A program made the translations under genes and the position numbers. The notes below the pieces were generated by a model. That model did no database searches, was not told the origin of the DNA, and saw nothing but the letters and a program-made list of their open reading frames with translations. Shown here one piece after another: positions 5,436-32,926 of a stretch of DNA of 32,926 nucleotides (positions within the stretch are counted from its first letter, which is position 1; the number at the start of each line of letters is the position of its first letter). Source of the DNA: Candidatus Binatia bacterium (GTDB lineage Bacteria > Desulfobacterota > Binatia > HRBIN30 > CADEER01); NCBI GenBank assembly GCA_028282445.1, contig JANQHZ010001023.1, forward strand, positions 1 to 32,926, written 5' to 3'.

Positions 5436-6113
5436 TTGAGATTTCGGGTCTCGATAGGGGGGGCGCCGGCAATCGGAACAGCCATCGAGGGCCGGCGGCA
5501 CGGGAGACGTTCGGTCTTTGCCGCAGCGGCGGTACTACTGTGCCTCTTGTCGTCTCAGCCGACTCGCGCACAGGACACGTTGGCAAGGCTTGATTGCCCG
5601 AGATTCGTTGCGGCCGGCGAACCCTTCGAAGTCGAGTTCATCGTCGAGACGGCAAGCGACCCTATCGGTGCGTACCTGCTGCTGTTGAGCTTCGATGCGG
5701 GTTTTGCCGAAGTCATCTCCGTCGCGGGTGGCAGTCGCCCTGAGTTCGCGGGCACGCCTTTTCATAATCCGGCCGACTTCGATTCGGGCTGGTTGGTTCT
5801 GGCTGCGTACAACGCCACGAGCCTCGTCGAACCGGTCGGGACGGTGTCCGCAGCCCGTATCCGGATGATGGCGCGGCCCGATGCGAACGGTCTGAGCGAT
5901 CTCGACCTACCGCTCATGCTCGTCACCGACACGATGGGTCTTGATCTCGGGGCCGCGGTCTCAGGCTGCTCCATAGGATTTGTCGAGAGCATACCTGCAC
6001 CGGCGCCCGCGCTTGGTCCGGCAGGAAGCTTGGGCACGCTGCTCGTTTTGCTGATGGTCGCGAGAGCCCGCTTTCGCCGTCACCGACTCCAGTCTCGGGG
6101 AAAGCAAACCTGA
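5436..6113 (+). CDS. Cohesin-like protein with C-terminal sorting/membrane tail
   Basis: This 225-aa protein starts at a TTG, the only usable start in frame before the signal peptide: no ATG or GTG lies between the upstream stop and the hydrophobic core. Residues 25-46 (SVFAAAAVLLCLLSS to TRAQ) form the signal peptide. Residues about 48-178 are a cohesin-like domain clearly related to the one in the divergent 233-aa protein. The end has a PAPAPALGP stretch, a short hydrophobic segment (TLLVLLMVA) and an Arg-rich tail. That is the layout of IPTL/PEP-CTERM-type sorting signals, so this cohesin is probably surface-anchored. Its stop overlaps the next start (TGATG), which suggests translational coupling to the 2834-aa dockerin protein. 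The TTG start and lack of a strong Shine-Dalgarno may keep expression low. Confidence 0.85.
   Translation: MRFRVSIGGAPAIGTAIEGRRHGRRSVFAAAAVLLCLLSSQPTRAQDTLARLDCPRFVAAGEPFEVEFIVETASDPIGAYLLLLSFDAGFAEVISVAGGSRPEFAGTPFHNPADFDSGWLVLAAYNATSLVEPVGTVSAARIRMMARPDANGLSDLDLPLMLVTDTMGLDLGAAVSGCSIGFVESIPAPAPALGPAGSLGTLLVLLMVARARFRRHRLQSRGKQT
5577..5969 (+). other. Cohesin-like domain of the anchored protein
   Basis: The domain has GAYLLLLSFD, SVAGG, the block F.GTPFHNPADFDSG, then LAAYNATSLVEPVGT and a closing strand near MLVTDTMG. Its order and spacing match the domain at 4735-5112. Two cysteines (residues 54 and 178) bracket it and could form a disulfide. Confidence 0.65.
5991..6101 (+). other. C-terminal anchor: Pro-Ala stretch, hydrophobic helix, Arg cluster
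   Basis: Residues about 186-222 run from a Pro-Ala repeat through a short helix to a cluster of Arg, Lys and His. This tripartite shape is used by CTERM sorting systems and also by simple C-terminal membrane anchors. No exosortase or rhombosortase gene is in the window, so which of the two applies cannot be decided here. Confidence 0.6.
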
Positions 6114-6115
6114 TG
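6097..6115 (+). promoter_or_regulatory. Ribosome binding site and coupled TGATG junction
   Basis: GGGGAAAG at 6097-6104 lies eight bases before the ATG at 6113-6115. That ATG shares its first base with the TGA stop at 6111-6113. The arrangement supports this start for the 2834-aa protein and its coupling to the cohesin gene. Confidence 0.6.
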
Positions 6116-14617: not shown

Positions 14618-17600
14618 CCTTGCTGTCGCCGCAGCGTTCTTTCTGAATCTGGCGCTCGCAAGCGCGCAGACGTTGACCTATGGGCAATATCAAGTCGGCG
14701 GTTTTGGCCTTGAGGTCTCGCCACCTGTCGTAACGGTGCCGCGAGATGTTCCGTCGAGTGTCACCACGAATCTTGTGGGTATCTCGACTGCACCAATCGG
14801 TTCAGTTGTACGGGCCCGGGTTCGGGGTCCGAGCATTCCTACTATTCAGATACTCACCGGGATTCCCGGTGGCTCGCTTCAACTTCCAGGTCTTTCTCAG
14901 GCGGGGATACACTTTCTTGAAGATATAGAGTTGGTCCTTGAATCGGGTGAGCTCATCGCCGCTGATCCACCAACGGTAAGTATCGATGTTCTCGACGAGT
15001 TCCTCGTGACTTCCGTCGTTTCGCGACCCCTCTCGCTCGAAGAAATCCGCGCGCTCGGTATCGAGTTCGACGAGAACAGCTTTCAAGCCTTCAGCTTCAC
15101 CGTCGCATTCACCACGAGCAGTGGCGTCGTCGAAATCGACTTCCCCGTTCTAATGCCGATCGTCGCGGGTGAGGAGCAGCCGCGGTTTATTCAGCCGCCG
15201 GGGTTTCAGTCGTTTCAGCAGATTCCGGGGCTGCCCAACATTTCTCTGGCACCGGCGATTCTGGAGCCGATCGAGGAGATTAAGGAGTCCCTGCCGCCGG
15301 GGGTGGAGATCCCGCCGATCCCGGGTGTGGTGGTTATTCCGGGGAACGTTGCCTTTCTCAATCAGTTCTTCAGCGTATTGCTTCTGGTATCCAACGAGGC
15401 GCCGGACGGAACTCCCTTGGTTGTGCGAGACGTCGAGGCGGAGATTGTGCTGCCGCCGGGGCAGGATGGAGTTCCGGGCGACATTACGTCGGATCCGCCT
15501 TATGCGCCTGGGGATCCGGAGTTCGATAACCCGCTACGAATCGCGAAGCTGGCTGACGAGGGGCGCGTGATCGTGCGGCCGGTGCTGTCGGCGGGGCCCG
15601 ATGGTGAGGAGGGGACGGGGGACGACGAGAATCGGCTGGTGCCGCAGGGGCGCGGTAGCGCTGAGTTCTTCGTCGAGGGTGTAAGGCAGGGGAATCACAT
15701 TGTCGAGATCGAGCTGCGCGGGATTCTCGACGGGCTGCCGGGCGGGCCGATCGAGATCTCGGGAATCACGGAAGGCGCGGTCGTCGTGCGTGACCCGAGC
15801 TTTTCGATCACCTTCATTCATCCGAACACCGTTCGCGCCGGCGAGGTCTACGAGCTGCGCGCGCACCTTCAGAATACCTCGGATGTCGACGCTAACCTGG
15901 TCACGGTGTGTCTCGAGGAGCGCAACCTCTCCGGGGCTCGCTTTGTTGACTCGGACGACAGCTGCCAGTTGATCGAGACGATCTTTCCAGGGGAATCCGG
16001 GGTCGCCGTGTTTCCGCTGGAGGCGTTGCGCACAGGGCGCGTCAACGCCTCGACCCTCGAGCTCGATGGTGAGGGCGGCGTGATCAGCGGTCGCCGCATC
16101 TCGTTGGTGACGGGTATCGGCGAATCGGGCGCTCCGACGTCGCCGGATACGCTGATTCTGCCGCCGTCTACCGGCCTGCTGCGCGAGCGCGCCAACAACG
16201 ACGATCTACTGTTTCGTGCCCTAGCGCTGCTCGGCGAGGCGCACTCGATCGCCACGGCGCCGCGCGGCAGCCTGCCGCCGGGTGTGTCGCCCATCGTTCC
16301 CGGTACGGTGATCCAGCGCGCGCGCGAGCTTACGGAGGCGGCTCTCCGACTCGATCTCAGCGTGCGGCCGGGGCCGAACGGTCAGCCGGAGCCGCTTCCC
16401 GACGGGCTGCTGCTGACCTTGCAGGATCTGCACTTCGATTTCCTCGGCGCCGGTAGCTTCGATTTCGGCTGGGACTCACTCTTTCGCAGCTCGCGCCAGG
16501 CGCGGCTGTTTGCCGAAGCGCTTGCCGAGGTGCTGGGGCGCGAGATGCAGTCCCTCGGCTTCGCGGACCTCATCGAGTTGCAGCAGTCCTGGGCGGATAC
16601 GGAGTCGTACCGCGACGCGCACGTGTCGATCGCGACGCAGGGGGGTACAACTCCCGCGTTCTCGATCACGGATAGCGTTGAGCGCACGCTTGGTGGTTCG
16701 CTCGATCCGGAGGGCGGCGATCGCGAGTTCCCGGGTGGCGACGTGCTCACGTTCCCGGGAAGCGGGCAGCTCGCGCTGCTCACTCGTCTCGAGTCATCGC
16801 GCTACGGAGTTGCGTTCGACGTAGCCACCGATACCACCTTCGACCTCGGCATTGTCGCGCCGGGAAGCGACGGACAATTGCGTCAGTTTGTCGTGCGTTC
16901 GCTCAGCGTCGCCCCCGGCGATGTGCTCAGCGCGACGATTCGTCCTCGTACGCAAACACCGGTGCTGTTCGAGCTCAACGGGCAAGTCTTGGTGCCCGCT
17001 GCGGAGCTGGTCATCGTCGACGGTCCTCCCGAGATTCTCGGCGTGATTCAGAATGCCGACCGCGAAGTCGATCGCTTCGGGCGCGTCGTGGCGATTCTTT
17101 TCGACGAGGAGGTCGATCCGGCGACCGCTACGCCGCCGGGCAACTACGCGGTGAGCGACAATGAGATCGCCATGTTGGCGCCGCCGAACTTGATCGATGG
17201 CAACGCGGCGCGGCAGGCGCTGGTGCAGTTCGGCAACCGCATCGTCTTCGTCGGCATGCGCGATCCGGTCGGGCCTTTCCGCACGCGCACACTCGACATT
17301 GTCGGCGTTCGCGACCTGCGTGGCCAAGAGATGGATCCGGCACTGGGCGTGCCGATCCTCGCCGATCCGGACATCGAGAACGGGGCGACCCTGACCGGGC
17401 GCGTGCGCCGCGCTGATGGTACGCCGGTGGCGAATGCCGAGATCACGTATCGCAATACCGACAGCAACCAGATTGGTCGGTTCGAGAGGACGATCTCGGT
17501 TAAACCCGCTGACGCCGAGGGTGGCTACGGATTCGACTTCGTTCTCAAGAGCCCGGACGGACCGTTCCGTATCCGCGCCCGCGACCCGATCACTGGTGAG

Positions 17601-20600
17601 GAAGGGGAGCTCAGCGCCGCGGTGGCGATTGATGGACAACGCTTGAACCTCGATATCGTTCTTGCCGGGCGCGGGTCGGTCGAGGGAACGGTGCGCGACC
17701 AGAACGGCCAGCCGATCGCCGGCGCTTTCGTCCAAGTCAGTAGCTCGGTCGGGCGCGACAAGAAGTCGGTACTGACCGACCAGAACGGCCTCTACGTGGT
17801 TAATGACATCCCCGTCGGCGGCTTCGGCGTCGAAGCAGTGACCACGCAAGGTAGAGCGCGCGCCTCGGGTGCGATCATCCGAAACGGCGAGACTGCGGTC
17901 GTCGACGTGACGATCTTTCCGGCGGCACCATCCAATGCAACCCTAGCTGGGCAAGTGCGCTTCCCGGACGGATCGATTGCCCCCGGCGTCGACGTCTTCC
18001 TCGGCTTCTCCAACGGAAGCTTCATCGACCGTACGACGAGCGATGAGGGCGGCACCTTTGCTTTCGATGGCCTCGCGGCGAGCAGCTACTTGGTGCGTGC
18101 CCTCGACGTTGCCCAAGGGCTCACTGGGGAGACGACCGTTTCGGTCCCGCAGAGCGCCGACGTGTTCGCCTCGGTAACTTTGGCGGGAACCGGGAGCGTC
18201 ACGGGCCGGGTCTTCGGTCCCGATGGCGTCACCCCGGTGCCCGGTGCGCTGGTCGCCGGTGGTACCGAGATCGTCACGGCCGACGAGAACGGCGACTATT
18301 TCATCCCCATCGTTCCGGTCGGAATTCGCACGATCGAAGCGGCCGACCCCGAGACCGGTAACAAGGGGGCGACGCAGGTGTCGATTCTGGTCAACGGCCA
18401 GGCTTCGGCCGGCATCGACATCGTCTTGGAGCCGCGCGGTCGAGTGACCGGACGCGTGCTCGATCCGTCGGGTGCGGTTGTTCCCGGGCAGGAGGTTCGG
18501 CTGCTCGTCGGTACGAGCTTTGACTTTGGCGAGATCATTTACCTGGTGCGGCGAACGAATACCGCCGCCGACGGCACGTACGCGTTCGACCAGCTCGACC
18601 TCAAGTCGTTCCCTCTGATGGCTGTGCGCGGAAGAGAAGTGGCGAATGGCCGCGTGCATCTATCGTCAACGCGACGTGAGCAAATCCTCGACCTGCAGCT
18701 CGTGGCACCGAACGGCTCCGTGGAAGGCACGGTCGTGCAGGGCGGCGACCAGCCGTTCCCGATTGCCGCCGAGGTGTCGCTCAGCGCTCGCGTTCCCAAC
18801 GCTGCTGGGCTGCTCGAATTCCGCAGTGCTGGAACGATCGTCAACGACCCCGACCGGGGTTTTCGCTTCGAGGATCTATTTCCCGGCCGCTTCTCGGTTA
18901 CGGCGAGGTCGTTTTTCTCGTCAGGTGGCGAAACGGCGACTCTCTCGGGAACCCTGCCCGACTTCGATCCCAACATCGATGGGATCGTACTGACCCTGAT
19001 TCCGAACGAGGCGTCGCTGCGCGGGCGTGTGCTCGATCCGGAAGGCGAGCAGATTCTTCCGATACTCGACGGCGACGGCATCCCACTTCCTCTGCCGGTA
19101 TGCATCTCATCGAACCGGCTGCGCAGCCAGCTCGACGACAATACGCCCGCGCCATGTTTCGGCTCGACGCTGGACTGTGGCGGCATCTGCGTCGACGCCA
19201 GCGACGGAACCTTCGAGTCGACGATCGCTCTCCCCGCCGATCTCTACACCATCGTCTTGCGCGACGAGCGCAGCGGCTCGCCGACCGAGGGACTCAGCGG
19301 ACGTTCGACGATCTCGCTGTCCAAGGCGCAGGATGGGGAGCGCGACGTGCGCTTGCTAGGTGAAGGGAACCTGCTGGTCGACGTCGTCGATGGCATGGGG
19401 GACCCGATGCCGGGCGTCCATGTGACCGTGCGCCGCACGAGCTTCCCGAGCGACACCCGGCAAGCGCTGCTGCTCGACGGCACAATGTTGTTCGAGAATC
19501 TCACCGAAGGATCGATCTCGGTGAGTGCGGTGGTGTCGACGGATCCTCTGATCGATGTCGGTGGGCGCGAGGACCTGCGCGGCTTCGGCGGAAACGCGAG
19601 CACGACGGTCGTTCGCGGTAGCACCCAGATGGTCGAGGTGCGGATCGCCGATGCGGGGCGCGTAACCGGACGCTTTCTCCTGCCGGACGGCGTAACGCCG
19701 ATTCCCAATGCCCAGGTTGAGCTACGCCCGTCTGGGCTTGGCAGCTTCTTCGACGTTACGGATGCCGACGGTGCGTTCTCGTTCAACGGCGTTCCGCGCC
19801 GAAGCTACTCGCTGGAGGGCGTCGATCCCGTGACCAACCGATACGGCCGCGCCGGCGGGCGTATCGACTTCGACGGTCAAGAAGTCGTGACCAACATTGA
19901 GCTCGGGCCGCTGGGATCCGTGGTCGGGGTCGTTCTCGATGCCGATCAAACCACACCGGTGGCGGGTGCCGAAGTTCAATTGCTTCTCGGGTCGTCGGTG
20001 TCGCAGACAGTGACGGCCGACGCCGGTGGAGAGTTTGCCTTCCAGAGTGTTCCGGGAGGCGCCTTCAGCGTGCGTGCCTTTTCGCCGGGGGGGCTCTCCG
20101 GTCAGGCGAGCGGCCGCATCGACGAAGAGTCGCAGGAGGTCGCGGTCGAGGTCGTGATCGAGGGCAGCGGCCGCGTCGAGGGGACCGTGTTCGATGCCTT
20201 TGGACAGCCCGTGCCCGATGCCGAAGTCACCCTGCGCGACGCTCGCGGGTCATCGCGCTTTGCTCAGACTTCGAGCGATACTTCAACCTTGGGGCAGTAT
20301 TCGTTCGATATCATACCGCTCGGTGGAGTCTCGGTTACGGCACGTCCGCTCGGGGCATTGACGCCGGGTGACGGCGGCAGCGCCGGCGGCGTCGTCGAGC
20401 CCGACGACGAGACGATCACGGTCGACGTCACATTCCAGGGCACGATGACGGTCGGCATCGAGGTCGAGGGCACGGTCGGAGCCGCGCCCGTATCGGCGCG
20501 CGTCGACAGCAGTGGCCTGTTTGGCGGTCGCGTGCCGCTGTCGACCGTCGACAATGGCGTCTTCCTATTCGAGGGCGTACCGCTGGCGCCATTCACCGCG

Positions 20601-23600
20601 GCGGCGAGTCAGACCACTCCGATTGGAACGACCATCTCGGCGAGCACCTCGATCTCGCAGGTCGATCTGCCTGGTCCAGGTGAGCGTGTCGACGTCGTGC
20701 TTCAGCTCAGCCAAGTGGCGACGGTCGTTGGGGAAGTGGTGCATCCGGAAGGCGAATCCGTCTCGGGAACGCTCGTACTGCTGCAGGCTGGTGGTGTCGC
20801 GTCGCAGCAGCTGGTCGGGGATGATGGGGTGTTCGAGTTCTCCGGTGTTCCGCTGAACGCCAATCTTACCGTCGAGGCGGACGGCTCGGCCGGTGCGCGA
20901 GCCTTGTTCCGAGGGCGTATCGACGGCGGCGGCAACGTTCTCGACGAGGAAGATATTCCGATCGATCCACTGCGTCTGATCCTCGACCTAGAACCGCCGA
21001 TGGTGACAGCCGTGCTGCCCAACAACGGCGGCATCGATGTCCCGACGACGTCCGTAATTGATCTGACTTTCTCCGAGGAGGTGGACGTCGACACCCTAAC
21101 GACCTGCACGGGGCAGCCGCAGTCGATGGTGCCGGCGTTTTACCTCGTCGAAGCGGTCGAGGGTAGCGTCGACATCGGTAACCCGAGTGATCCGTGCGAC
21201 GATGGCAACGTGATCCCGCTCGACGCCGTTCTCTCCCTGGACGGGCGAACAGTGACGTTGACGCCGCTGGTCGAGCTTTCGAGCCTGACTTCGCACACGC
21301 TCGTCGTCGATGCCGGAACACTGACGCAGGGTGCCCTGGTCGGTGGTGTGCGCGACTTGGTCGGCAAAGCGCTCGAGGCGCCCTTCATCACGAGCTTCAC
21401 CACTGTAGACAACGTCGCGCCGGCTCTGCTCACATTAAGCCCGCCGGACGGCGCGGTCGAGGTTGATGAAGAGAACCTGGTGCGTGCCACGTTCAGCGAG
21501 GCCCTTAGCGCGGCGACGATCAGTGAAGCGACGGTCCGGATCGACGGACCGGGCGGGCCCGTTAGCGGGCTGCGCAGCCTCGTCCCAGGCGGCACCGTCG
21601 TCGTCTTCACTCCGACCGACGGCAGTGGCGGCCGCGCCTTCTTCGACAGTGACTCGACGTATACGATCACGATCGACGGTGTCGAAGACCTTGCCGGTAA
21701 TCCCTTGCAGACACCGGTGCAGGCGAGCTTCGTAACGCGGGATACGATCGCTCCTGAGGTTTCGATGTTGGTCGCCGTGCCGGCAGCAGCGCGCGAGGGC
21801 GATTCGATCGTCCTGGTCGCGACGGTTCCCGACACGGATATCGATACCGTCGAATTCTTCGTCGACGGGGTGCTCGAATCCGTGCAGTCGCAGCGCATGC
21901 CCTCCGGTGCGTTCGAGGCGACGATCACGATGCCCGACGCTCCTATCGCGGTGCGTGCCCGAGCCATCGACCAGGTCGGCAACATCGGACAGACGACGGG
22001 CGAAGTGGTCGTCCCGCTCCTGCCCGACAATCCACCCAGCGTCAGCATCACCGCACCGACCGCGGGGACGACGTTCCTACCGGGTGAAGGCGTGCGCTTC
22101 TCCGTTGACGCCGCAGACGATGTCGGTGTCGCCTCGGTGCGCGGTGTCACCAGCGGCGAGGCGGCGAACGAGCAGACGCGAAACGTCGCGCCGCCACTCC
22201 CCTTGGTGAGCCTTGATTTCGACGTCACGATTCCGACCAGTGCCGCCACCGGCACGATTTCGTTCGCCGCGGTCGCCACCGACACACGCGGCCAAATGAG
22301 TGCTCTTGCCTCGATCGAAGTCGAGGTAAACGACCCGACGCCGCCGGTCGTCAACTTGCTACCTCCGGCAAACGGCGTTGCTCTCCTCGGCGAGACTCTG
22401 AACGTCACCGTGCAGGCGAGCGATGCCGCTGGGATCGTCGAGGTTGTGCTCGAGGCTCCTCAGATCGCTTTCGCGCAAACAGTTGAGGTCGCGCCGGCCG
22501 AAACCGACACTTCGCAGGCGTTTACTTTGCCTGTGCCGGCGCCGCTCGCCGCTCTGGCGCTGGATCTGACCGCCACTGCCACGGATCGATCCGGAAACCA
22601 GACCTCGGTTGCGCTTGCGCTACCGGTGGTCGGGCCGTTCGAGATTGACGCAGTCGCTACGACAGGCGTCGCGAACGACTCTCTGATTGCTTCGGCGAAC
22701 GTGCAACAGACAATCACTCTGCTCGGACAGGGCCTCGGCGAGGTAGCTGCGGCGCTGTTCGACGCGACCGACGCCGCGGGCGACCCGGTCGTGCAATCGG
22801 CAGGCCTGTTCGATGTGCTTTCCGACGGCTCCCAGGCGTCGGTGATCGTGCCTGCGACTGCCGTCACAGGAGCGGTTCGTCTCGAGCTGTCTGATGGCTC
22901 GACGGTGCCGGGAAGCGTCTCGTTGCAGATCGTCCCAACCGCGAGCGCGATCTCGATTCCGGCGGAGGAAGCTTTCGTCGCCGGTGTCGAGGTCTCGATT
23001 GATGGAACCGGATTCCGCGCCGGTGCGACCGAGGTGGCGTTCCCACCGGCCAATCTCGACGTCGTCTCCGCTTTGGTCAGCAATGCCAACACGCGGCTGG
23101 CGGTGACGTTGCCGGTTGGCGTGGCGGCAGGTGAGGCGTTCGTCCTAACTGATGGCGGCATCAGCAATCCGCTGCCGATTCTCATCTTCGGTCTCATTGG
23201 TGTCGCGCAGGAGGGCACCGCGACCGATCCCCTGACTGCTTCGGCCAACATCGGTCAAACGATCACCGTGACCGGAAGCGATCTCAGCGAAGATCTCGCC
23301 GCGGTCTTTGGGGCGACGAACGACGTAGGCAGCGGGCTCAGCATCGACGTATCCTTGAGCAACGTCAGCGCCAACGCCATGCAAGCCGAGGTCATCGTTC
23401 CCGCCGGCGCGATCAGCGGTTCCGTGCGCCTACGCGCGGCGGACGGAATTCTGTCGCCGGCAGATGCGATGCTGCAGATCGTACCAACGCTGAGCAGCTT
23501 TACTGTCCCGCCGGGGCAGGTGTTGCAGCCCGGGGTCACTGCGACGCTGAATGGAACAGGCTTCCGTATCGGACAATCGGACGTCGAGTTACCCGGTCTG

Positions 23601-26600
23601 GCGCTTGTATCGCCTGATACGGACTCGCTGACCTCAATAACGGTTACCGTGCCCGGTGGTCTTGGCAGTGGTGAGGTTGCGGTCGTCACCGACGGAGGCC
23701 GCAGTCGTGGCATCCCCCTGCCGGGTACGTTTGGGCTGAGCGCGACCGCCGACCTCGGTGTTCCCGCCAACGCGACGGAGGCATCGGCCAATGTCGGCCA
23801 AACGATCACCGTCACAGGTGACGAGCTGTCAACGGACCTGCGACTGGTGGTGCCGAGCGTCAGCGACGGCGGGGCGAACGGAACCCTGGAGCTGCCTCTG
23901 TTGAACGTCGCGCCGGATCGCACATCGGCGTCGGCCGTTCTCGGCGCGGGCGCGAGCTCCGGAACCGTCTATCTGCGCCACACCGACGGCGCCGCCGCGA
24001 CCTCGACGGTGATGCTGCAAGTCGTTCCGACCCTGGATACGCTCGAGGTACCGGACGGTCAGGCCTTTGGACCGGGTACTGTGGCGACGCTGCGCGGCAG
24101 CGGTTTCGTCGAGGGACAGTCCGATGTCGCCTTCCCCGGCGCCGCCGCGGTTACACCGGCTTCCGACGTCTTCGACAGCGGCGCGTCCTTGACGGTGACG
24201 ATTCCGGTCGGGGTCGAGGACGGCGTCGTCTCGGTCACGACTTCGGGCGGTACCAGCCCTGGCGTCAACATCGTGCTGGACGCCGATGGCGACGGGTTGA
24301 GCGATCTCGACGAAGTCAACATCCACGGCACAAACCCATTCGTCGCGGATACCGACGGCGACGGCCTCTCCGACGGCGATGAGGTCAACGTCCACGGCAC
24401 CAATCCGCTGGAGCCCGACAGCGACGACGACGGACTCGACGATGGCGCCGAGGTTGGCCTCGGAACGGATCCGACGGTTCCCGATTCGGACTCGGATGGC
24501 CTCGACGATGGTGAGGAGATCTTGATTGGTACCGAGCCCCTCGATGAGGACAGCGACGACGACGGGATTGAAGACGGTGCGGAGGTCGACGCCGGTCTCG
24601 ATCCGCTGGATGGTAGCGACGCGGCGGCTGATCCGGACGGTGACGGGCTGAGTAGCGCCGAGGAGATCGGGTTGGGAACCAACCCGTTCCGCAGCGACAC
24701 GGATTCCGACGGCCTCAGCGACGGCGATGAGGTCAACACACGCGGAACCGATCCGCTGAATCCGGATACCGATTCCGGCGGTCGCACGGACGGCGACGAG
24801 GTCCTTGTGGATGGCACCGATCCGCTTGACGGCTCGGACGACCGGGTGGAGTTGCCGATTGTTCTCCAGGATAGCGATACTTTCCGCTGGGACATCAGAG
24901 GCGACGGCACAATCAGGGACGGCAGCAACAATGCCTTCGACGGAGCCTTTGATCTGGTTGTTGACGGCGGATTCTTCTCGTTCTTCCCCTCGGGCACGGC
25001 GGAAGAGCTCGGTCGGGAAATCGTGATTGGCCCATGGACTCGTTCCGGGCTGATCATCCGGCGCAAGGTCTTCGTTCCCGAAGACGACAGCTTCGCACGC
25101 TTCCTCGAGGTGTTCGAGAACTTCAACGGCTTCGACGTACCGGTCTCGATCGAGTTACGGAGCGATCTCGGTGCCGGTAACCGTAGTGAGATCATCACCA
25201 CCTCGGACGGCGACCAGGTTTTCGAGCGCAGAGACGACTTCATCGTGCTCGACGACGGCACGGACGGCGGGGGTAACCCTGCGGTGACGCACGTGTTTTC
25301 GGGTCCGGGGGCCGAGGTGGAGCCGAGCAGTGTTTCGACCAACATCCCGGGTGGGGACGACTTCTCCGTTCGCTTTGACTTCACGGTGCCGGCGCAGGGG
25401 CGTGCGATCGTGATGCATTTCGGCATGCAGTCTCACGACCGTGGCGCTGCCGCGACGCGTGCCGAGGGTCTCACGTTCGTCGAGGGCTCGGCGCTCTTCG
25501 GTCTCGCACCCGACGAGCAGCTCGACGTCGTCAACCTCGTGCCTTTCGCCGACAGCGATCGAGACGGCGCCACCGACAGCGAGGAACTGGCGGCAGGCAC
25601 TTTGCTCGACAATCCGGACAGCGACGGCGACGGCTTGCTCGACGGATTTGAGCTCGACAATGGCCTCAACCCGCTGGAGGCTGACTCCGATGGCAATGGT
25701 ACGAACGATGATCTGGAAGACCCGGACGGGGACGGCCTGACGAATGCGGAAGAGCAGACTCTGGGTACAGATCCGTCGGCGAGTGATAGTGACGGCGACG
25801 GCTTGGACGACGGCGCGGAGGTGAACGGCTCACCGGCGTCCGATCCGCTGAACCCGGACACCGACGGCGATACCCTGAGCGACGGCGAAGAGGTGAACGT
25901 CCACGGTACCGACCCGACCAAAGCCGACAGCGACGACGGAGGTCGCACGGACGCACAAGAAATCAATGAGGATGGCACGGATCCACTCGACGGCGCCGAT
26001 GACCGCGTCGTATTCCCAGCGACATTGTTCGATGGCGCGGGATTCCTCTGGGACATCAACAGCGACGGATTGACCATTAACGGTACGATCGACGCTTTCG
26101 ACGGCGGTCTGCAGTTGTACATCAACGGCCAGCGCTTCAGGGGGCCATCGTTCGGCAGCGCCGAGGATCTCGGGCGTGAGCTGGTCATCGGGACGGATCG
26201 TCTTTCGAGACTGGACGTTACGCGGAAAGTCTTCGTGCCCGAGGACGGTGTGTTCGCTCGCTATCTGGAGATCCTCGAGAATCCAGATGACTCGCCGCCC
26301 TGCGACGCCCTCGAGGTGCAGGCATTGAGTGACTGCGTCGCCGAATTCTGCCCAGACCTTGATCCAGCCTGCGTCGGCAGCGCCTGTGTCGCAGAGCTTG
26401 CTCCTCTGTCGACGTCCTGCCTGAATTGCCTCGGCGCGACGTCGCCGATTGACGTCTGCACGGATGCGCCCAGTCTCGCGACCGTGGAGATCCGTACGCA
26501 TCTCGGTTCCGGGCGCGCTACGCAGCTCGTCCTCACTTCAGATGGAGACCAGGCCTTCGAACGCAGCGATGATTTCATCATCACCGACGACGCCGACGGC

Positions 26601-29600
26601 GCCGGCGATCCCACAGTGGTGCACGCCTTCTCTGGACCGTTTGCCGAGATCGAGCCGATCTCGGTGTACACGAATGCCCCGGGTCGCGAGGAAGTTAGGT
26701 TCGCCTTCAATGTAGAGGTTCCGGACGGCGGTCGCGCGATCATCATGCACTTCGCTTCTCAGAATGACGACCGGGCGAACGCGGAGGCGGGGGCGCATAC
26801 CCTGGTAGGGCTCGAGGGCTCGACTTTGTCCGGCCTCAGCGCCGCCGAGATGAACGAGGTCGTAAACTTCTTCGGCTTCCCTGATAGCGACGACGACGGA
26901 CTTGCCGACGCGGAAGAAGACTTGCTCGGCACGGACTCCAACAATCCCGACAGCGACGGAGACGGTCTGCTCGACGGAGTCGAGGTCGCCAATGGCCTCG
27001 ACCCGCTCGTCCGCGACAGCGACGGCAACGGCACGGACGATGGTGCCGAGGACGGCGATGCCGACGGCTTGGATAACCTCACCGAGCAGACGATAGGAAC
27101 CGACCCCGGGGTAGCGGACAGTGATGGTGATGGGCTGTTGGACGGCGCGGAGGTCGCGGGCGATGCCGGGAATGGCGTGCCAACGACGGATCCGCTGAAC
27201 GCGGACAGCGATTCGGACGGTCTCTCTGACGGCGACGAAGTGCTCGTTTGGGGAACCGATCCGACTCTGGCCGACACCGACGGCGGCGGTCGCAGCGACA
27301 GTCAGGAAGTCAATGAGGACCAAACTGACCCGTTGGATCCGACCGACGACGCGATCGTGCTGCCGACGGACCTCTTCGACAGTGAGGGCTTCCGATGGGA
27401 CATTCAGGGAGACGGGCGCATCGGTGACGGGTCCAGTGGCGCGTACGAGGGCGGGAAGGGACTGACGGTCAACGGCACGGCCTTTCCGTCATTGGCGGTG
27501 GCACGCGTCGAGGACGACGGGCGGGAAGTGGTCGTCGGTCCGTGGACGGAGTTTGGCCTGGACATTCGCCGCAAGATCTTCGTCCCCGAAAACGAAGCTT
27601 TCGCTCGCTACCTCGAGATCTTCGAGAATCCGGCTTCTTGTGCGGCAGTCGAAGTCGAGGCAGTGAACGACTGCGCGAACGCCCTCTGCGACGCGACCGC
27701 CGCTTTCGAGGTCTTTCAGGCCTGTGTCGCTGCGAGTTGTGCCGCCGAGCGCTCGGCAATGCCGTTGGCATGTGTGAGCTGCCTCGACGCGGCGGTCTCG
27801 ATCGCCGATGCGACGGCGTGCATTGGCGACAGTGTGCTGGTCGCTGCGAGCCTAGGGTCGAACCTGGGGTCGGATTACTTCGACGCCGTCCAGATCATTG
27901 CGACGTCGAGCGGCGATCAGATCCTCGATCGCGACGATGGCTACGTGATTACCGATGATTCAACGGACGGCGGCGGCGTGCCCGCCGTCACGGACGTGTT
28001 TGCCGGCCGCCGTTACTCCATACCGCCAACCAACGCCTTTTTCGGTCAAGTCGACGATTTTCCCCCACGACAGCGTGTTCTGGTCGACTACGACTTCACC
28101 GTGCCGGTTCGCGGTCGCGTGCTCTTGATGCACTTCGCGGCCCAGCGAAATCTCGGACTCGAGGCAGGGACCAGTGCGGCATCCCTGACCTATCTGGATG
28201 GAGAGGCTTTGAATGGTCTCAGCCAGTCGGAACAGGAGCAGATCGTCAACTTCGTAGCGTTCGCGGATCGCGATCGAGACGGTCTGACGGACGACGAAGA
28301 AAGCGTCTTGGGAACCAACCCCGAGTTGGCGGATAGTGACGGAGACAGTTTGAAGGACGGGTTCGAGGTCGAGTTCGGCTTCGATCCGCTCGTCTCAGAC
28401 GAGGACGGCAACACGATAGATGATGGTCTCGATGACACCGACCTCGATGGCGTGGACAACGCAACCGAAGAGGCGGCGGGGAGCGACCCGACCGTCGCCG
28501 ATACCGATGGCGACGGTTTGACCGACGGCGAGGAGGTCAACAATCTCGGCACGGACCCAAGCGATGCTGATAGCGACGACGATGGGCTGACCGACGGCGA
28601 AGAGGTCAATGTTCACGCTACCGATCCTCTGGCTCCCGATACCGATGGTGGCGGCCAGCTTGACGGCGACGAAGTCCTGCGTGATCGAACGGACCCGATC
28701 GAGCCTAGCGACGACGAGGTCCTCACACTCTTCTCGCTGGATCGTGGGAGTGCGCTACTCAGGAGACTCGACCCAAGCACCGGCGCGATCTTATCGTCGC
28801 TTGCCATCACGATGCAGGGCGCCTCGGTACGAGGTGGGAGTGGGCTAGCGACACATCCGGTGACTGGGCAATTATTCGCCTTGCTCGAAGTGAACGACCG
28901 TCTCAGCCGCGATCTCGCTACGATCGATCCGCATACCGGCGAAGCGACCTCGATTGGCAATACAGGAGCTCCGTTTGCGGCACTCGCGTTCGGCCAAGAC
29001 GGCACGCTCTATGGCCTGACAGGTGAGAGGGGGGCCACTCCCGAGACGCTTTTCGAGCTTGATCAAGCGACGGGTGCTGCAACCCAGTTGACGACACTTG
29101 GATCGGGGTCAGGAGGAGAAGCCCTAGCGTTGAATCCGCTCGATGGCTTGCTCTATCGCGCCTCAGGCCGCGGCCGCAGGAACATCGACCGAATCTTCGA
29201 GACCGTTGACCCGAGCGACTTCTCGGTCGAAATGGTCATGCTTTTTGGTGACGATTCCGATCAGTTGAGGGCGCTCACATATGCCGGTGCCAATCGTTTC
29301 GTGGCATTCGATCGAGGCCGCGATTTCTACACGCTGAGCGCTGATGGACGGCTTCGCAAGATGGGGCGCCCAGGTGTGGAATCGAAGGGCCTCGCGTTCG
29401 TCCGCAGCGCTTTCATAGACCTCGACGCCGACGGACTAACCGGAAGCGAGGAGGCCGCTGCGGGCACGGATCCCCAGGACCCGGACACGGACGACGACGG
29501 CCTGTTGGACGGGTTCGAGGTCGACAACGGCCTCGATCCGCTTATCCCGGGAGACGAAAATGGCGATCTCGACAGCGACGGCCTGACCAACTTCGAAGAG

Positions 29601-32192
29601 CAAACGATCGGAACCGACCCGGCTGTCGCGGATACGGATGGGGACGGGCTGTCGGACGGAGACGAGGTCAACGTGCACGGTACCGATCCGCTGGATCCGG
29701 ATAGCGAAGGCGACGGATTGAGCGACGGCGATGAGATCAACGTCTACGGATCCAACCCGCTGAGTCGCGACTCTGACGGTGGAAGCCGCCCGGACGGGGT
29801 CGAGGTCAACCGCGACGGAACGGACCCGACCGATCCGAACGACGACTTGCCTAGCCTCTACTCCCTCGATCGGAACGCGGCAAGGCTGCACTTGATCGAT
29901 GTCAGCGACGGTTCGACGTTGGCGACAACGGAACTGTCTGTATTCGCAATGGGCCTGGCAACAAATCCGGAGACTGGTGAGCTCTGGACTTTCGTCGGGG
30001 GAGGCCAGCTATCAACGGTGGATCCGATAACCGGAGCGTTTGGAGTCGTGGGGTATCCTCCTGAATTTTTCGAAGCGATTACCTTTGACAACGATGGGAA
30101 CCTCTTGGGGGTGACCTCGTACTATGGCGCATCCCCGGGTTCACTCTTCTTCATCAGTACTCTGGATGCATCCGTAACGCCGATCCGGCCGCTGACAAGC
30201 CCGAGCAACTTCGGCAGCCATGCTCTAGCCTTCCACAACAACAGCGGCTTGGTTTATCACTCGGCGGGGGACTACAACAGCGCGTCGATTCTGGAGACCG
30301 TGGATCTGACGACGCTCCAATTGGAGATGCTTCCGTTGTCGGGTTTCAGCTTCCGCGAACCAACGGCGCTCACCTACGCAGGCAACTCGGAGTTTTTCGC
30401 AACCGACTACGGCCGCGATTTCATGTCGATTCGGGACGACGGCTTCGTGCGATCTCTGGGAACTCTGAGTCACACCTCGGCAGGCCTCGCCTTGGTGGGG
30501 GTCAGTCTCGCAGACCGCGACCTCGATGGGCTGAGCGACAGTGCCGAGGCCGTGCTTGGTACCAATCCCGAGGTTGCAGATAGTGACGGTGACGGGCTTG
30601 AGGACGGCTTCGAAGTAGAAAACGGGTTCGATCCACTCGATCCGGACGAGGACGGCAACACGATCGACGACGGACAGGACGATCCAGACGGTGACGGTTT
30701 GGATAGCGCGGCCGAGCAGTCTCTCGGGACTAACCCGACGCAGAGCGATACTGACGGCGACGGACTAGATGACGGCGAAGAGGTCAACGTCGAAGGAACC
30801 GATCCGCTGGTCGCTGACTCCGACAGAGACGGCCTCGACGATGGGGAGGAAATTGATTCGTTCGGCACCGACCCCCTCGACGCCGACTCCGACGACGACG
30901 GATTCAAAGACGGGGTAGAAATCAACTCGGGAAGCGATCCGCTGGCACCCGGCAGTGTGCCGTTCCTGCTGCTCTATGGGCTCGAGCGGTTCGGAAGCGG
31001 TTCGCTCTATCGGATCGATCCCGGCTCGGGTACGGCCTATGCAGTCGGCGAGACTGGGATCTCTGATTGGAGTGCTCTAGCCGTGGACCCAAATGGAGTC
31101 ATGTACGCGACACAGTTCTTCGGGGGACTCTTCAAGATTGATCCGTTGACCGCCGCGGCCGATTTGATCGGGCCAACGCTCGATGCGCTCGACGATCTCG
31201 CGTTCCGAAGTAGCGACGGGAGCCTTTTTGCGGCGACTGACTTTAGTCAGTTCGGGACGATCGATGTGACAACTGGCAGTGGCACAGTTGTCGCGAACCT
31301 AGGTTGCTGCGGAACCGGAGGCTTGGCCTTTTCTGCAGATGACACGCTTTACCAGACTCAACGGGATGACCTGAAAATCTTGGATCCGACGACGGGCCAA
31401 ACGACATCCCTTGGCCGATTGCAGACACCGCCCGGGCTGTCGTTGTTTGACACCTACGCGATCGATTTCCGGCCAGGAAGCAACGACCTGTTTGTGCTCT
31501 ACGAAGCATATCCCGCAAGGCTCGGCGTAATCGACCCGTCGACGGCGCAATTGACGGATATCGGGCCAACCGCAAGCGATCTCGTAGGACTGGCCTGGTT
31601 GCCCGCACCGGGCGGCGTCGACACAGACGGCGACACGCTGCCGGATGCGACTGAGGCCTTGGTTGGCTCGGACCCTGCGCTCATCGACACGGATGGCGAC
31701 GGGTTAACGGACGGCGAAGAAGTGCGCGACGTCGGGACCGACCCTAACGACGCAGATACAGATGACGATACGGTCAACGACGGCGATGAAGTCGATGCAG
31801 GTCGAGATCCACTGGCCGCGGATCCGACACCGACGCCGACCGACACGCCAACGCCGACCCACACGCCACCCGATACGCCGACGCCGACCCCGAGCCCGAC
31901 GACAGCAACCATCGGGACTGCTACCCCTACACCAACGGCAACGGATACTCCTTCCGGTCCACTCTGCTTTCGGTGTGACTACGACGAGCACTACTGCGAA
32001 TGCCAAGATGGTACGGTGGTGTTCGACGAATGCGTGTTGGACACCGAGCACGTCCAGACCTGCGGTCCACGTCAGCAGGATTGCGAGCAAGCTTGTATTG
32101 CTATTGACGGCCAGTTTCCTACAGAGGTTTTCTGCGCTCAGAACAACGCGTTCGATTGCTGCGGTGTCGTCGTGCAGGTGCCGTGCGACTGA
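14598..32192 (+). CDS. 5864-aa giant secreted repeat protein (CarboxypepD_reg, IPT-like, TSP3, propellers, Cys-rich tail)
   Basis: I place the start at the ATG at 14598, not the frame-open ATG 46 codons upstream, because it begins directly with a signal peptide (MRKACHSL to LALASA, cleavage near residue 23). It overlaps the previous stop by 20 bp. Residues 24 to about 815 are not recognised. A Big_5-like domain follows to about 926, then 13 carboxypeptidase-regulatory-like repeats (927-2132), two Big_5 domains, three Ig-like domains, three IPT-like units (2682-3227), and TSP3 blocks alternating with globular modules (3228-5742). A Thr-Pro linker and a 12-Cys tail end the protein. The many Asp-rich TSP3 loops should bind tens of calcium ions and stiffen an extended fibre. 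I see no dockerin, cohesin or membrane segment, so how it is retained is unclear. Adhesin, surface-layer component or filament are all possible (inference). No frameshift is seen across 17.6 kb. Confidence 0.92.
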   Translation: MRKACHSLAVAAAFFLNLALASAQTLTYGQYQVGGFGLEVSPPVVTVPRDVPSSVTTNLVGISTAPIGSVVRARVRGPSIPTIQILTGIPGGSLQLPGLSQAGIHFLEDIELVLESGELIAADPPTVSIDVLDEFLVTSVVSRPLSLEEIRALGIEFDENSFQAFSFTVAFTTSSGVVEIDFPVLMPIVAGEEQPRFIQPPGFQSFQQIPGLPNISLAPAILEPIEEIKESLPPGVEIPPIPGVVVIPGNVAFLNQFFSVLLLVSNEAPDGTPLVVRDVEAEIVLPPGQDGVPGDITSDPPYAPGDPEFDNPLRIAKLADEGRVIVRPVLSAGPDGEEGTGDDENRLVPQGRGSAEFFVEGVRQGNHIVEIELRGILDGLPGGPIEISGITEGAVVVRDPSFSITFIHPNTVRAGEVYELRAHLQNTSDVDANLVTVCLEERNLSGARFVDSDDSCQLIETIFPGESGVAVFPLEALRTGRVNASTLELDGEGGVISGRRISLVTGIGESGAPTSPDTLILPPSTGLLRERANNDDLLFRALALLGEAHSIATAPRGSLPPGVSPIVPGTVIQRARELTEAALRLDLSVRPGPNGQPEPLPDGLLLTLQDLHFDFLGAGSFDFGWDSLFRSSRQARLFAEALAEVLGREMQSLGFADLIELQQSWADTESYRDAHVSIATQGGTTPAFSITDSVERTLGGSLDPEGGDREFPGGDVLTFPGSGQLALLTRLESSRYGVAFDVATDTTFDLGIVAPGSDGQLRQFVVRSLSVAPGDVLSATIRPRTQTPVLFELNGQVLVPAAELVIVDGPPEILGVIQNADREVDRFGRVVAILFDEEVDPATATPPGNYAVSDNEIAMLAPPNLIDGNAARQALVQFGNRIVFVGMRDPVGPFRTRTLDIVGVRDLRGQEMDPALGVPILADPDIENGATLTGRVRRADGTPVANAEITYRNTDSNQIGRFERTISVKPADAEGGYGFDFVLKSPDGPFRIRARDPITGEEGELSAAVAIDGQRLNLDIVLAGRGSVEGTVRDQNGQPIAGAFVQVSSSVGRDKKSVLTDQNGLYVVNDIPVGGFGVEAVTTQGRARASGAIIRNGETAVVDVTIFPAAPSNATLAGQVRFPDGSIAPGVDVFLGFSNGSFIDRTTSDEGGTFAFDGLAASSYLVRALDVAQGLTGETTVSVPQSADVFASVTLAGTGSVTGRVFGPDGVTPVPGALVAGGTEIVTADENGDYFIPIVPVGIRTIEAADPETGNKGATQVSILVNGQASAGIDIVLEPRGRVTGRVLDPSGAVVPGQEVRLLVGTSFDFGEIIYLVRRTNTAADGTYAFDQLDLKSFPLMAVRGREVANGRVHLSSTRREQILDLQLVAPNGSVEGTVVQGGDQPFPIAAEVSLSARVPNAAGLLEFRSAGTIVNDPDRGFRFEDLFPGRFSVTARSFFSSGGETATLSGTLPDFDPNIDGIVLTLIPNEASLRGRVLDPEGEQILPILDGDGIPLPLPVCISSNRLRSQLDDNTPAPCFGSTLDCGGICVDASDGTFESTIALPADLYTIVLRDERSGSPTEGLSGRSTISLSKAQDGERDVRLLGEGNLLVDVVDGMGDPMPGVHVTVRRTSFPSDTRQALLLDGTMLFENLTEGSISVSAVVSTDPLIDVGGREDLRGFGGNASTTVVRGSTQMVEVRIADAGRVTGRFLLPDGVTPIPNAQVELRPSGLGSFFDVTDADGAFSFNGVPRRSYSLEGVDPVTNRYGRAGGRIDFDGQEVVTNIELGPLGSVVGVVLDADQTTPVAGAEVQLLLGSSVSQTVTADAGGEFAFQSVPGGAFSVRAFSPGGLSGQASGRIDEESQEVAVEVVIEGSGRVEGTVFDAFGQPVPDAEVTLRDARGSSRFAQTSSDTSTLGQYSFDIIPLGGVSVTARPLGALTPGDGGSAGGVVEPDDETITVDVTFQGTMTVGIEVEGTVGAAPVSARVDSSGLFGGRVPLSTVDNGVFLFEGVPLAPFTAAASQTTPIGTTISASTSISQVDLPGPGERVDVVLQLSQVATVVGEVVHPEGESVSGTLVLLQAGGVASQQLVGDDGVFEFSGVPLNANLTVEADGSAGARALFRGRIDGGGNVLDEEDIPIDPLRLILDLEPPMVTAVLPNNGGIDVPTTSVIDLTFSEEVDVDTLTTCTGQPQSMVPAFYLVEAVEGSVDIGNPSDPCDDGNVIPLDAVLSLDGRTVTLTPLVELSSLTSHTLVVDAGTLTQGALVGGVRDLVGKALEAPFITSFTTVDNVAPALLTLSPPDGAVEVDEENLVRATFSEALSAATISEATVRIDGPGGPVSGLRSLVPGGTVVVFTPTDGSGGRAFFDSDSTYTITIDGVEDLAGNPLQTPVQASFVTRDTIAPEVSMLVAVPAAAREGDSIVLVATVPDTDIDTVEFFVDGVLESVQSQRMPSGAFEATITMPDAPIAVRARAIDQVGNIGQTTGEVVVPLLPDNPPSVSITAPTAGTTFLPGEGVRFSVDAADDVGVASVRGVTSGEAANEQTRNVAPPLPLVSLDFDVTIPTSAATGTISFAAVATDTRGQMSALASIEVEVNDPTPPVVNLLPPANGVALLGETLNVTVQASDAAGIVEVVLEAPQIAFAQTVEVAPAETDTSQAFTLPVPAPLAALALDLTATATDRSGNQTSVALALPVVGPFEIDAVATTGVANDSLIASANVQQTITLLGQGLGEVAAALFDATDAAGDPVVQSAGLFDVLSDGSQASVIVPATAVTGAVRLELSDGSTVPGSVSLQIVPTASAISIPAEEAFVAGVEVSIDGTGFRAGATEVAFPPANLDVVSALVSNANTRLAVTLPVGVAAGEAFVLTDGGISNPLPILIFGLIGVAQEGTATDPLTASANIGQTITVTGSDLSEDLAAVFGATNDVGSGLSIDVSLSNVSANAMQAEVIVPAGAISGSVRLRAADGILSPADAMLQIVPTLSSFTVPPGQVLQPGVTATLNGTGFRIGQSDVELPGLALVSPDTDSLTSITVTVPGGLGSGEVAVVTDGGRSRGIPLPGTFGLSATADLGVPANATEASANVGQTITVTGDELSTDLRLVVPSVSDGGANGTLELPLLNVAPDRTSASAVLGAGASSGTVYLRHTDGAAATSTVMLQVVPTLDTLEVPDGQAFGPGTVATLRGSGFVEGQSDVAFPGAAAVTPASDVFDSGASLTVTIPVGVEDGVVSVTTSGGTSPGVNIVLDADGDGLSDLDEVNIHGTNPFVADTDGDGLSDGDEVNVHGTNPLEPDSDDDGLDDGAEVGLGTDPTVPDSDSDGLDDGEEILIGTEPLDEDSDDDGIEDGAEVDAGLDPLDGSDAAADPDGDGLSSAEEIGLGTNPFRSDTDSDGLSDGDEVNTRGTDPLNPDTDSGGRTDGDEVLVDGTDPLDGSDDRVELPIVLQDSDTFRWDIRGDGTIRDGSNNAFDGAFDLVVDGGFFSFFPSGTAEELGREIVIGPWTRSGLIIRRKVFVPEDDSFARFLEVFENFNGFDVPVSIELRSDLGAGNRSEIITTSDGDQVFERRDDFIVLDDGTDGGGNPAVTHVFSGPGAEVEPSSVSTNIPGGDDFSVRFDFTVPAQGRAIVMHFGMQSHDRGAAATRAEGLTFVEGSALFGLAPDEQLDVVNLVPFADSDRDGATDSEELAAGTLLDNPDSDGDGLLDGFELDNGLNPLEADSDGNGTNDDLEDPDGDGLTNAEEQTLGTDPSASDSDGDGLDDGAEVNGSPASDPLNPDTDGDTLSDGEEVNVHGTDPTKADSDDGGRTDAQEINEDGTDPLDGADDRVVFPATLFDGAGFLWDINSDGLTINGTIDAFDGGLQLYINGQRFRGPSFGSAEDLGRELVIGTDRLSRLDVTRKVFVPEDGVFARYLEILENPDDSPPCDALEVQALSDCVAEFCPDLDPACVGSACVAELAPLSTSCLNCLGATSPIDVCTDAPSLATVEIRTHLGSGRATQLVLTSDGDQAFERSDDFIITDDADGAGDPTVVHAFSGPFAEIEPISVYTNAPGREEVRFAFNVEVPDGGRAIIMHFASQNDDRANAEAGAHTLVGLEGSTLSGLSAAEMNEVVNFFGFPDSDDDGLADAEEDLLGTDSNNPDSDGDGLLDGVEVANGLDPLVRDSDGNGTDDGAEDGDADGLDNLTEQTIGTDPGVADSDGDGLLDGAEVAGDAGNGVPTTDPLNADSDSDGLSDGDEVLVWGTDPTLADTDGGGRSDSQEVNEDQTDPLDPTDDAIVLPTDLFDSEGFRWDIQGDGRIGDGSSGAYEGGKGLTVNGTAFPSLAVARVEDDGREVVVGPWTEFGLDIRRKIFVPENEAFARYLEIFENPASCAAVEVEAVNDCANALCDATAAFEVFQACVAASCAAERSAMPLACVSCLDAAVSIADATACIGDSVLVAASLGSNLGSDYFDAVQIIATSSGDQILDRDDGYVITDDSTDGGGVPAVTDVFAGRRYSIPPTNAFFGQVDDFPPRQRVLVDYDFTVPVRGRVLLMHFAAQRNLGLEAGTSAASLTYLDGEALNGLSQSEQEQIVNFVAFADRDRDGLTDDEESVLGTNPELADSDGDSLKDGFEVEFGFDPLVSDEDGNTIDDGLDDTDLDGVDNATEEAAGSDPTVADTDGDGLTDGEEVNNLGTDPSDADSDDDGLTDGEEVNVHATDPLAPDTDGGGQLDGDEVLRDRTDPIEPSDDEVLTLFSLDRGSALLRRLDPSTGAILSSLAITMQGASVRGGSGLATHPVTGQLFALLEVNDRLSRDLATIDPHTGEATSIGNTGAPFAALAFGQDGTLYGLTGERGATPETLFELDQATGAATQLTTLGSGSGGEALALNPLDGLLYRASGRGRRNIDRIFETVDPSDFSVEMVMLFGDDSDQLRALTYAGANRFVAFDRGRDFYTLSADGRLRKMGRPGVESKGLAFVRSAFIDLDADGLTGSEEAAAGTDPQDPDTDDDGLLDGFEVDNGLDPLIPGDENGDLDSDGLTNFEEQTIGTDPAVADTDGDGLSDGDEVNVHGTDPLDPDSEGDGLSDGDEINVYGSNPLSRDSDGGSRPDGVEVNRDGTDPTDPNDDLPSLYSLDRNAARLHLIDVSDGSTLATTELSVFAMGLATNPETGELWTFVGGGQLSTVDPITGAFGVVGYPPEFFEAITFDNDGNLLGVTSYYGASPGSLFFISTLDASVTPIRPLTSPSNFGSHALAFHNNSGLVYHSAGDYNSASILETVDLTTLQLEMLPLSGFSFREPTALTYAGNSEFFATDYGRDFMSIRDDGFVRSLGTLSHTSAGLALVGVSLADRDLDGLSDSAEAVLGTNPEVADSDGDGLEDGFEVENGFDPLDPDEDGNTIDDGQDDPDGDGLDSAAEQSLGTNPTQSDTDGDGLDDGEEVNVEGTDPLVADSDRDGLDDGEEIDSFGTDPLDADSDDDGFKDGVEINSGSDPLAPGSVPFLLLYGLERFGSGSLYRIDPGSGTAYAVGETGISDWSALAVDPNGVMYATQFFGGLFKIDPLTAAADLIGPTLDALDDLAFRSSDGSLFAATDFSQFGTIDVTTGSGTVVANLGCCGTGGLAFSADDTLYQTQRDDLKILDPTTGQTTSLGRLQTPPGLSLFDTYAIDFRPGSNDLFVLYEAYPARLGVIDPSTAQLTDIGPTASDLVGLAWLPAPGGVDTDGDTLPDATEALVGSDPALIDTDGDGLTDGEEVRDVGTDPNDADTDDDTVNDGDEVDAGRDPLAADPTPTPTDTPTPTHTPPDTPTPTPSPTTATIGTATPTPTATDTPSGPLCFRCDYDEHYCECQDGTVVFDECVLDTEHVQTCGPRQQDCEQACIAIDGQFPTEVFCAQNNAFDCCGVVVQVPCD
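17376..20993 (+). repeat. Thirteen tandem carboxypeptidase-regulatory-like beta-sandwich repeats (coding)
   Basis: Units of roughly 80-120 residues begin with a G-[RS]-V-x-G-x-V motif, followed by [DP]-x-x-G-x-P-[VI]-x-x-A-x-V. A D-x-x-G-x-[FY]-x-F turn comes mid-unit and a V-x-[IL]-x-[LV] strand closes it. I count thirteen. Units 7 and 8 are the most divergent, and unit 7 has a Cys-containing insertion. These domains act as structural stalks in many surface proteins. Confidence 0.82.
22641..24278 (+). repeat. Three tandem 181-183-codon IPT-like repeats (coding)
   Basis: The units are 22641-23189, 23190-23732 and 23733-24278 (183, 181 and 182 codons). Each has A[ST]ANV/I-x-QTIT near the start, an SG-x-V-x-L-R-type strand, the phrase LQ[IV]VPT in the middle, then a GTGF- or GSGF-type turn and an FPG-like segment. 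Each looks like a pair of IPT/TIG-type domains. The constant length points to duplication of the pair as one unit. Confidence 0.8.
26301..26459 (+). other. Eight-cysteine cassette inside module 2 (coding)
   Basis: This segment of 53 residues carries eight cysteines. It interrupts the beta-domain just after the LEILENP motif. Module 1, which is otherwise alike, lacks it. It probably forms a disulfide-tied mini-domain. Confidence 0.7.
27639..27821 (+). other. Eight-cysteine cassette inside module 3 (coding)
   Basis: This segment of 61 residues has eight cysteines. It sits at the same place as in module 2, just after LEIFENP. Order and approximate spacing (DC, LC/FC, AC, SC, then C-x-x-C-L) match the cassette at 26301-26459. 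Confidence 0.7.
31824..31961 (+). repeat. Thr/Pro-rich low-complexity linker (coding)
   Basis: About 46 residues of PTPT[DH]TP-type repeats lead from the last TSP3 block to the Cys-rich tail. The DNA resembles the linker at 6413-6643. Confidence 0.88.
31962..32189 (+). other. Cysteine-rich C-terminal tail of the giant protein (coding)
   Basis: The last 76 residues hold 12 cysteines, including CFRC, CEC and a CC pair, ending in PCD. I do not recognise the family. The even number and compact spacing suggest a disulfide-tied cap or binding domain at the end of the fibre. Confidence 0.6.
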
Positions 32193-32218: not shown

Positions 32219-32593
32219 TCAATCTCGGCGCATGAGATGGTTGAAGTCATACAGCCTGCACGCCTGCATGTCCTCCGTGACACCGTCTCCGACCAAGCCG
32301 CATTTTAGACGACCCTCTGCGGACTTGCGGAGATGTGCACAACTTCGACATGTCAAGGTCATATCCGGAGGATCTAGGCTGATGTCCCAAGGCAATTGCG
32401 CCTCCAACTGCTCCCGGAAGATCTCGTTCTTCGTGCGGCGTAGCTCTTGCTGGGATTCAGCAAGGAAGAACTGCAGCCCCAGCGAGTTGATTGTCTCGAG
32501 GCAGAGGGCAAGCGCGTCCGGCCCGTCATCGTGAGTATCCTGGGGCCAGTAGCGCATCTGTCGATAGAGAGTTGCCAGGCGACGGTTGAACAC
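32219..32593 (-). pseudogene. 3' fragment of a phage terminase large subunit
   Basis: A 124-codon open frame starts at a GTG at 32593, just after an in-frame stop. Near its N-terminus is a W-P-x-D-x-HDDGPDAL motif (32516-32533). That matches the end of the RNase H-like nuclease domain of phage large terminases, where the Asp residues hold metal. The ATPase domain (Walker motifs) and most of the nuclease domain are absent, whereas a complete large terminase is usually over 400 residues. The C-terminal extension has four cysteines (CRSC, then KC and AC) like a small zinc ribbon. The truncation point coincides with the direct repeats at 32600-32648, and no other phage genes are nearby. It is most likely a prophage remnant and non-functional. 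Confidence 0.6.
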
Positions 32594-32599
32594 GCCTCG

Positions 32600-32648
32600 G
32601 TGGACACCTCAAAACCGGCCAGTCGTCGACACCCCAAAACCGGCCAGT
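32600..32648. repeat. Two 24-bp direct repeats, possible IS21-type terminal repeats
   Basis: 32600-32623 and 32625-32648 match at 22 of 24 bases and are one base apart. Both end in CAAAACCGGCCAGT. Such tandem GTxGACAC...AAACCGGCCA units resemble the multiple terminal repeats of IS21-family elements as I remember them. No transposase gene is present, so at most an element end or scar remains. Confidence 0.4.
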
Positions 32649-32651
32649 TGA

Positions 32652-32926
32652 GGCGGCAGCAGCGGCGAGCAGATCCTCGCGGTAGACGTCGACGCGGTCG
32701 GCGTTCTCGAGCCCCTCGATCACGAGCCTAACGTCCGCCGCATCGAAGGTGGCATCACGCTCGCCTACGCCGCCGGCGCCAGGCCCCTCATTTTGCTCAC
32801 CAAGTGCGATGTCGAAAACGACGTTGACCGATCTCGGGAGGCCGTCTGCGGGTCGGCGCGGGGCATCCGCGTGCTGACCGTAAGTGCGACGGAAGGCGAA
32901 GGGCTCGACACGGTTCGCGACGCTAT
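32652..32926 (+). pseudogene. rsgA: 5'-truncated ribosome small-subunit GTPase RsgA, running off the window
   Basis: The frame opens right after an in-frame TGA (32649-32651) and has no plausible start codon. The translation begins near EQILAVDVDAVGV, continues with NVRRIE and LAYAAGARPLILLTKCDV, and reaches TVSATEGEGLD. This is the centre of RsgA (YjeQ), a circularly permuted GTPase that acts in 30S subunit maturation. TKCD (32799-32810) would be the G4 motif and VSA the G5 motif. The P-loop, which comes later in this family, lies beyond the window. The N-terminal OB-fold is missing and replaced by the direct repeats, so the gene is broken at its 5' end unless the junction is an assembly error. 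Confidence 0.72.

Follow-up and report, generated by a model that had tools for sequence, protein, structure and literature searches.

Elements of the IS21 family duplicate a short target on insertion and have TG...CA termini. The ends of the family, as given in PMC10122671, are built from L1/L2 and R1/R2 repeats. The locus studied here resembled such ends in its paired units, in IstA/IstB fragments on the inside in one relative and in an inverted right end in another, but carried rsgA where istA and istB belong. Its remaining parts resembled a terminase large subunit that may be of Mu-like phage type (C-terminal tail alike by PHROG 38; one weak phage match near a Mu gp29-like gene), and RsgA (YjeQ), the ribosome small-subunit GTPase (GTPase-domain similarity, TKxD motif, and, if it belongs to the same gene, a C-terminal piece on another contig, C329). 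Compared with a complete terminase large subunit, only the last 124 aa were kept; compared with RsgA, the fragment lacked the N-terminal domain and a start, and the P-loop part would fall in a probable contig gap.

The window, i.e. the whole stretch of DNA analysed, was an entire contig of 32926 bases (G000:C396), with its right edge at the contig end, an assembly break. The source was a draft genome of 6.05 Mb (96.4% complete). At the right end of the contig the order was terminase tail, two 24-bp repeats and headless RsgA fragment. The co-occurrence of these three parts, claimed in a sequence-only reading of the same DNA, was borne out by the PHROG 38 match, by the repeat pattern (0/100 shuffles) and by a partial PF03193 match. 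A genomic deletion scar, with a relict IS21-type end at the contig break, was the reading given slightly better than even confidence.

The terminase tail was a minus-strand ORF (32593-32219; 124 aa) and the remainder of the gene was absent. Its similarity to PHROG 38, a terminase large subunit profile, covered positions 671-715 of 760 (E = 3.6e-5), indicating that the C-terminal region was present; the TIGR01630 match was weak (E = 0.0096; 16.4 bits, below the cut-off of 41.65), and Pfam gave no match. The ATPase domain was absent from the ORF, and a PF03237 search of the genome returned nothing. The sole match among 50,697 phage records (E up to 0.01) fell within a Curvibacter phage TJ1 gene that adjoins a Mu gp29-like gene, at 50% over 30 aa (E = 7e-3). 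Besides itself, the ORF had only a chance-level match in its own genome (E = 0.456). A convergent ORF of 5910 aa ended 27 bp past the terminase stop.

The 67-bp block (32595-32661, plus strand, inner side rightward) contained two 24-bp plus-strand units (32600-32623 and 32625-32648) that were 92% identical (22/24) and started 25 bp apart. A degenerate pattern of the repeat (up to 3 mismatches) had 2 sites in the window, and 0/100 shuffles reached 2. The block was identical (67/67) to C886:7351-7417, and the flanks differed on both sides: left of the block was the terminase tail on C396 and a frame-broken stretch on C886, and past the block the contigs ended after 265 bp and 31 bp, respectively. 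By eye the C886 stretch read as a REP-type transposase remnant, but it gave no family match, and a match to the repeat core on C1123 (1 mismatch in 15) lay inside a long ORF and was judged chance. The window contained neither transposase genes nor a right end, only the left end of about 67 bp remaining. Neither an assembled element body nor a right end carrying these repeats was found in the genome, and its IstB-like loci were without the repeats; full IS copies with the same repeats, which had been proposed as a check, were not encountered, only the second block copy on C886. An istA/istB pair with intact frames, without CAAAACCGGCCA units, was observed at G000:C1178 (about 910-3190); its own end repeats were of a different type by eye (AAGTGCCCCC plus its inverse).

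The block, as a 66-bp query (E up to 0.001), matched 8/58 genomes including its own (7/57 others), the set consisting of the own genome and 57 relatives from genus to class. A 97-nt query matched 3 of the 395 genomes of the phylum, own included; the two besides it, in G148 and G299, looked like chance when inspected. At 7/8 of the relatives' loci there were two units spaced 25 bp apart and at 1/8 a single unit, a count that is partly circular because the loci were picked by similarity. At one of them (L029, G052) an rve domain was recognised in a fragment on the inner side (E = 2.9e-7), along with a stretch similar to IstB (52% over 58 aa), and with the queries used no IS21 genes were found beside the other seven. 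At another (L026, G014) the outer edge recurred in inverted form, as two copies of GGTGTCCACCGA, some 350 bp beyond the left end. Because of the IstA/IstB fragments on the repeat side at 1/8 loci and the matching right end at another, the 67-bp block is probably, as judged from sequence, the left end of an IS21-family element. Multi-unit terminal repeats were represented by two units at the C396 left end, and by an inverted right end in a relative only. Outside TGGACACC, CTCGG was exact at 5/8 of the relatives' loci, one off at 2/8 and different at 1/8, and the outermost base was not fixed; TG...CA ends would presumably begin a few bases further inward than CTCGG here.

The L026 locus (G014:C541, 1054-1405) looked like an element of some 350 bp that had lost its body but kept its two ends; an IstA-like frame start was seen between the ends by eye, with no Pfam match. 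At L024 (G006:C14 region) a left end at 5889-5935 was accompanied 2.7 kb on by a right-end-like block (about 8590-8660) on the other strand, and because of that strand the two blocks do not bracket an element. A plasmid search with the IS-end query and a viral-contig search with the repeat pattern found none. The locus suggests that left ends of IS21 type, carrying CAAAACCGGCCA units in pairs, are scattered through the class as relicts.

Orientation was given by the inner (right) side of the block, at which C886 shared 22/26 positions with L028 (G010; 0/500 shuffles as high). The inner-side homology of C886 was to this one relative; the same segment had no clear likeness to four other loci (scores reached by 37, 74, 409 and 487 of 500 shuffles). 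The inner side of C396 was unlike L028 (198/500 shuffles as high) and turned into rsgA from 32662. On C396 rsgA therefore sat inward of the IS end; a plain IS insertion into rsgA was rejected on this ground, and the arrangement is better explained by a misjoin or by a deletion that began within the element. An IS21-like insertion followed by a deletion had been suggested from the sequence: the likeness of the repeats to an IS21 end held, and the orientation agreed with a deletion starting inside the element, the deletion itself being what we infer. An IS21-family element would have landed in a prophage terminase gene or next to it. A subsequent rearrangement, one of whose breakpoints lay within the element some 65 bp in from the left edge, would have removed the element body and joined the leftover left end to mid-rsgA, leaving a remnant presumably without evident function.

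The misjoin, already raised by the sequence-only reading as a misassembly at an IS end, was considered distinctly the less probable origin. The wrong flanks may have been paired at the 67-bp block, or the IS end and rsgA may have been fused by a chimeric read within a GC-rich GGCGGCAGCA stretch. The block was present at least twice and identical in two contigs, with both copies near contig ends (31 bp for C886, 265 bp for C396), the draft had 1198 contigs and 3.5% contamination, and the element body with these ends was not found assembled, all of which would be consistent with an artefact. GC content also differed (57.3% in the terminase part and 66.8% in the rsgA part), though stretches this short prove nothing. 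After a flank swap alone, however, rsgA would be fused at the same point to one or other copy of the IS end.

The RsgA internal fragment (about 32664-32926, plus strand) was truncated by the contig end. Positions 32655-32925 matched PF03193 at 16-102 of 174 (E = 5.4e-8; 33.3 bits, over the cut-off of 30), part of the RsgA GTPase domain being present, and a TKxD motif was seen by eye. The second repeat ended in a stop in the frame of the fragment, and no ATG, GTG or TTG was seen by eye from there to where the RsgA similarity begins; the head of rsgA is therefore missing. The N-terminal OB-fold domain was absent upstream of the fragment, and a PF16745 search over the whole genome, limited in sensitivity as only 5/14 control genomes pass its cut-off, gave none over the cut-off (best E = 0.0245). 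None of the solved structures searched matched at E 0.01.

Along the 347 positions of NF008931, the piece that opens C329 aligned at 268-323 (E = 7.2e-10) and the one in the window at 116-201 (weak alone; E = 0.11). As the pieces on C396 and C329 did not overlap and were in order along NF008931, one gene split across a gap is likely. The 3' part of rsgA probably resumes on C329 beyond some 200 bp (about 66 codons) of missing sequence, if the two contigs are adjacent as we infer. The case that the sequence-only reading had named as refuting it, a matching intact rsgA with its 5' part elsewhere, was half borne out: a downstream RsgA piece opened C329, but a search of limited sensitivity found no 5' part.

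Where the RsgA similarity stopped on C329, positions 172-186 (GAGGTGTCAGCCGAG) matched the inverted left end at 13/15 and in the right orientation. This motif weakly supports the rsgA piece as cargo between inverted IS21 ends (left on C396, right on C329) with the body replaced, an explanation considered improbable. The motif was common: the 15-mer (up to 2 mismatches) had 34 genome sites, including the two left ends already known, vs 8 for the reversed control. Among 30 sites checked of the 34, the one on C329 was the only one with CCGGCC within 15 bp upstream, a placement also found in 2/3 reference right-end copies, but CCGGCC may be plain rsgA coding sequence. The best local match of C329 to the L026 right end was 80% over 25 nt (E = 0.019), yet the C329 locus (L079) had no CAAAACCGGCCA-like unit; moreover, the test was picked after the match was seen, and it presupposes the C396-C329 link. 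If this explanation were true, the locus would be a shell lacking its own transposase genes that may have been mobile as a whole, and would illustrate on a small scale how IS21 ends can capture part of a gene. Two other right-end candidates with 1 mismatch were judged chance: C322 had no repeat-like unit and C955 one weak distant unit.

Full-strength RsgA matches were rare in the class. Among the first 49 candidates per genome, PF03193 was over its cut-off in at least 3/58 genomes, namely the own one, through this fragment, and G019 and G039, which share a family; none of the same-genus relatives G001-G003 passed. Among the same first 49 candidates, 55/58 genomes had weak PF03193 matches, as expected of other GTPases, and 10/14 controls passed. 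The fragment as a query had no match in 7 other genomes, including three of the same genus. The view of rsgA as a housekeeping gene whose loss is costly, advanced by the sequence-only reading, was not supported by these PF03193 counts. Its idea of a compensating second copy was not supported either: no second intact rsgA was found in the own genome by TIGR00157, the fragment itself or PF03193, although TIGR00157 missed the window fragment too, so that these searches were not fully sensitive. The fragment was 37% identical over 76 aa to the G039 protein, and a scan of genome contigs that relies on exact short peptides gave one relative, in Streptomyces calvus (48%). rsgA is probably sporadic in the lineage, perhaps horizontally acquired, and broken here. 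As most relatives are without a full-strength RsgA match, the loss of the head here would seem to call for no compensating copy.

A composition scan of the window did not reveal a sharp break, and a plasmid search with the C396 window tail gave no match. Most of C396 was occupied by three very long ORFs of 1402 aa (145-4353, minus strand), 2834 aa (6113-14617, plus strand) and 5910 aa (14460-32192, plus strand), which by eye resembled large repetitive secreted proteins.
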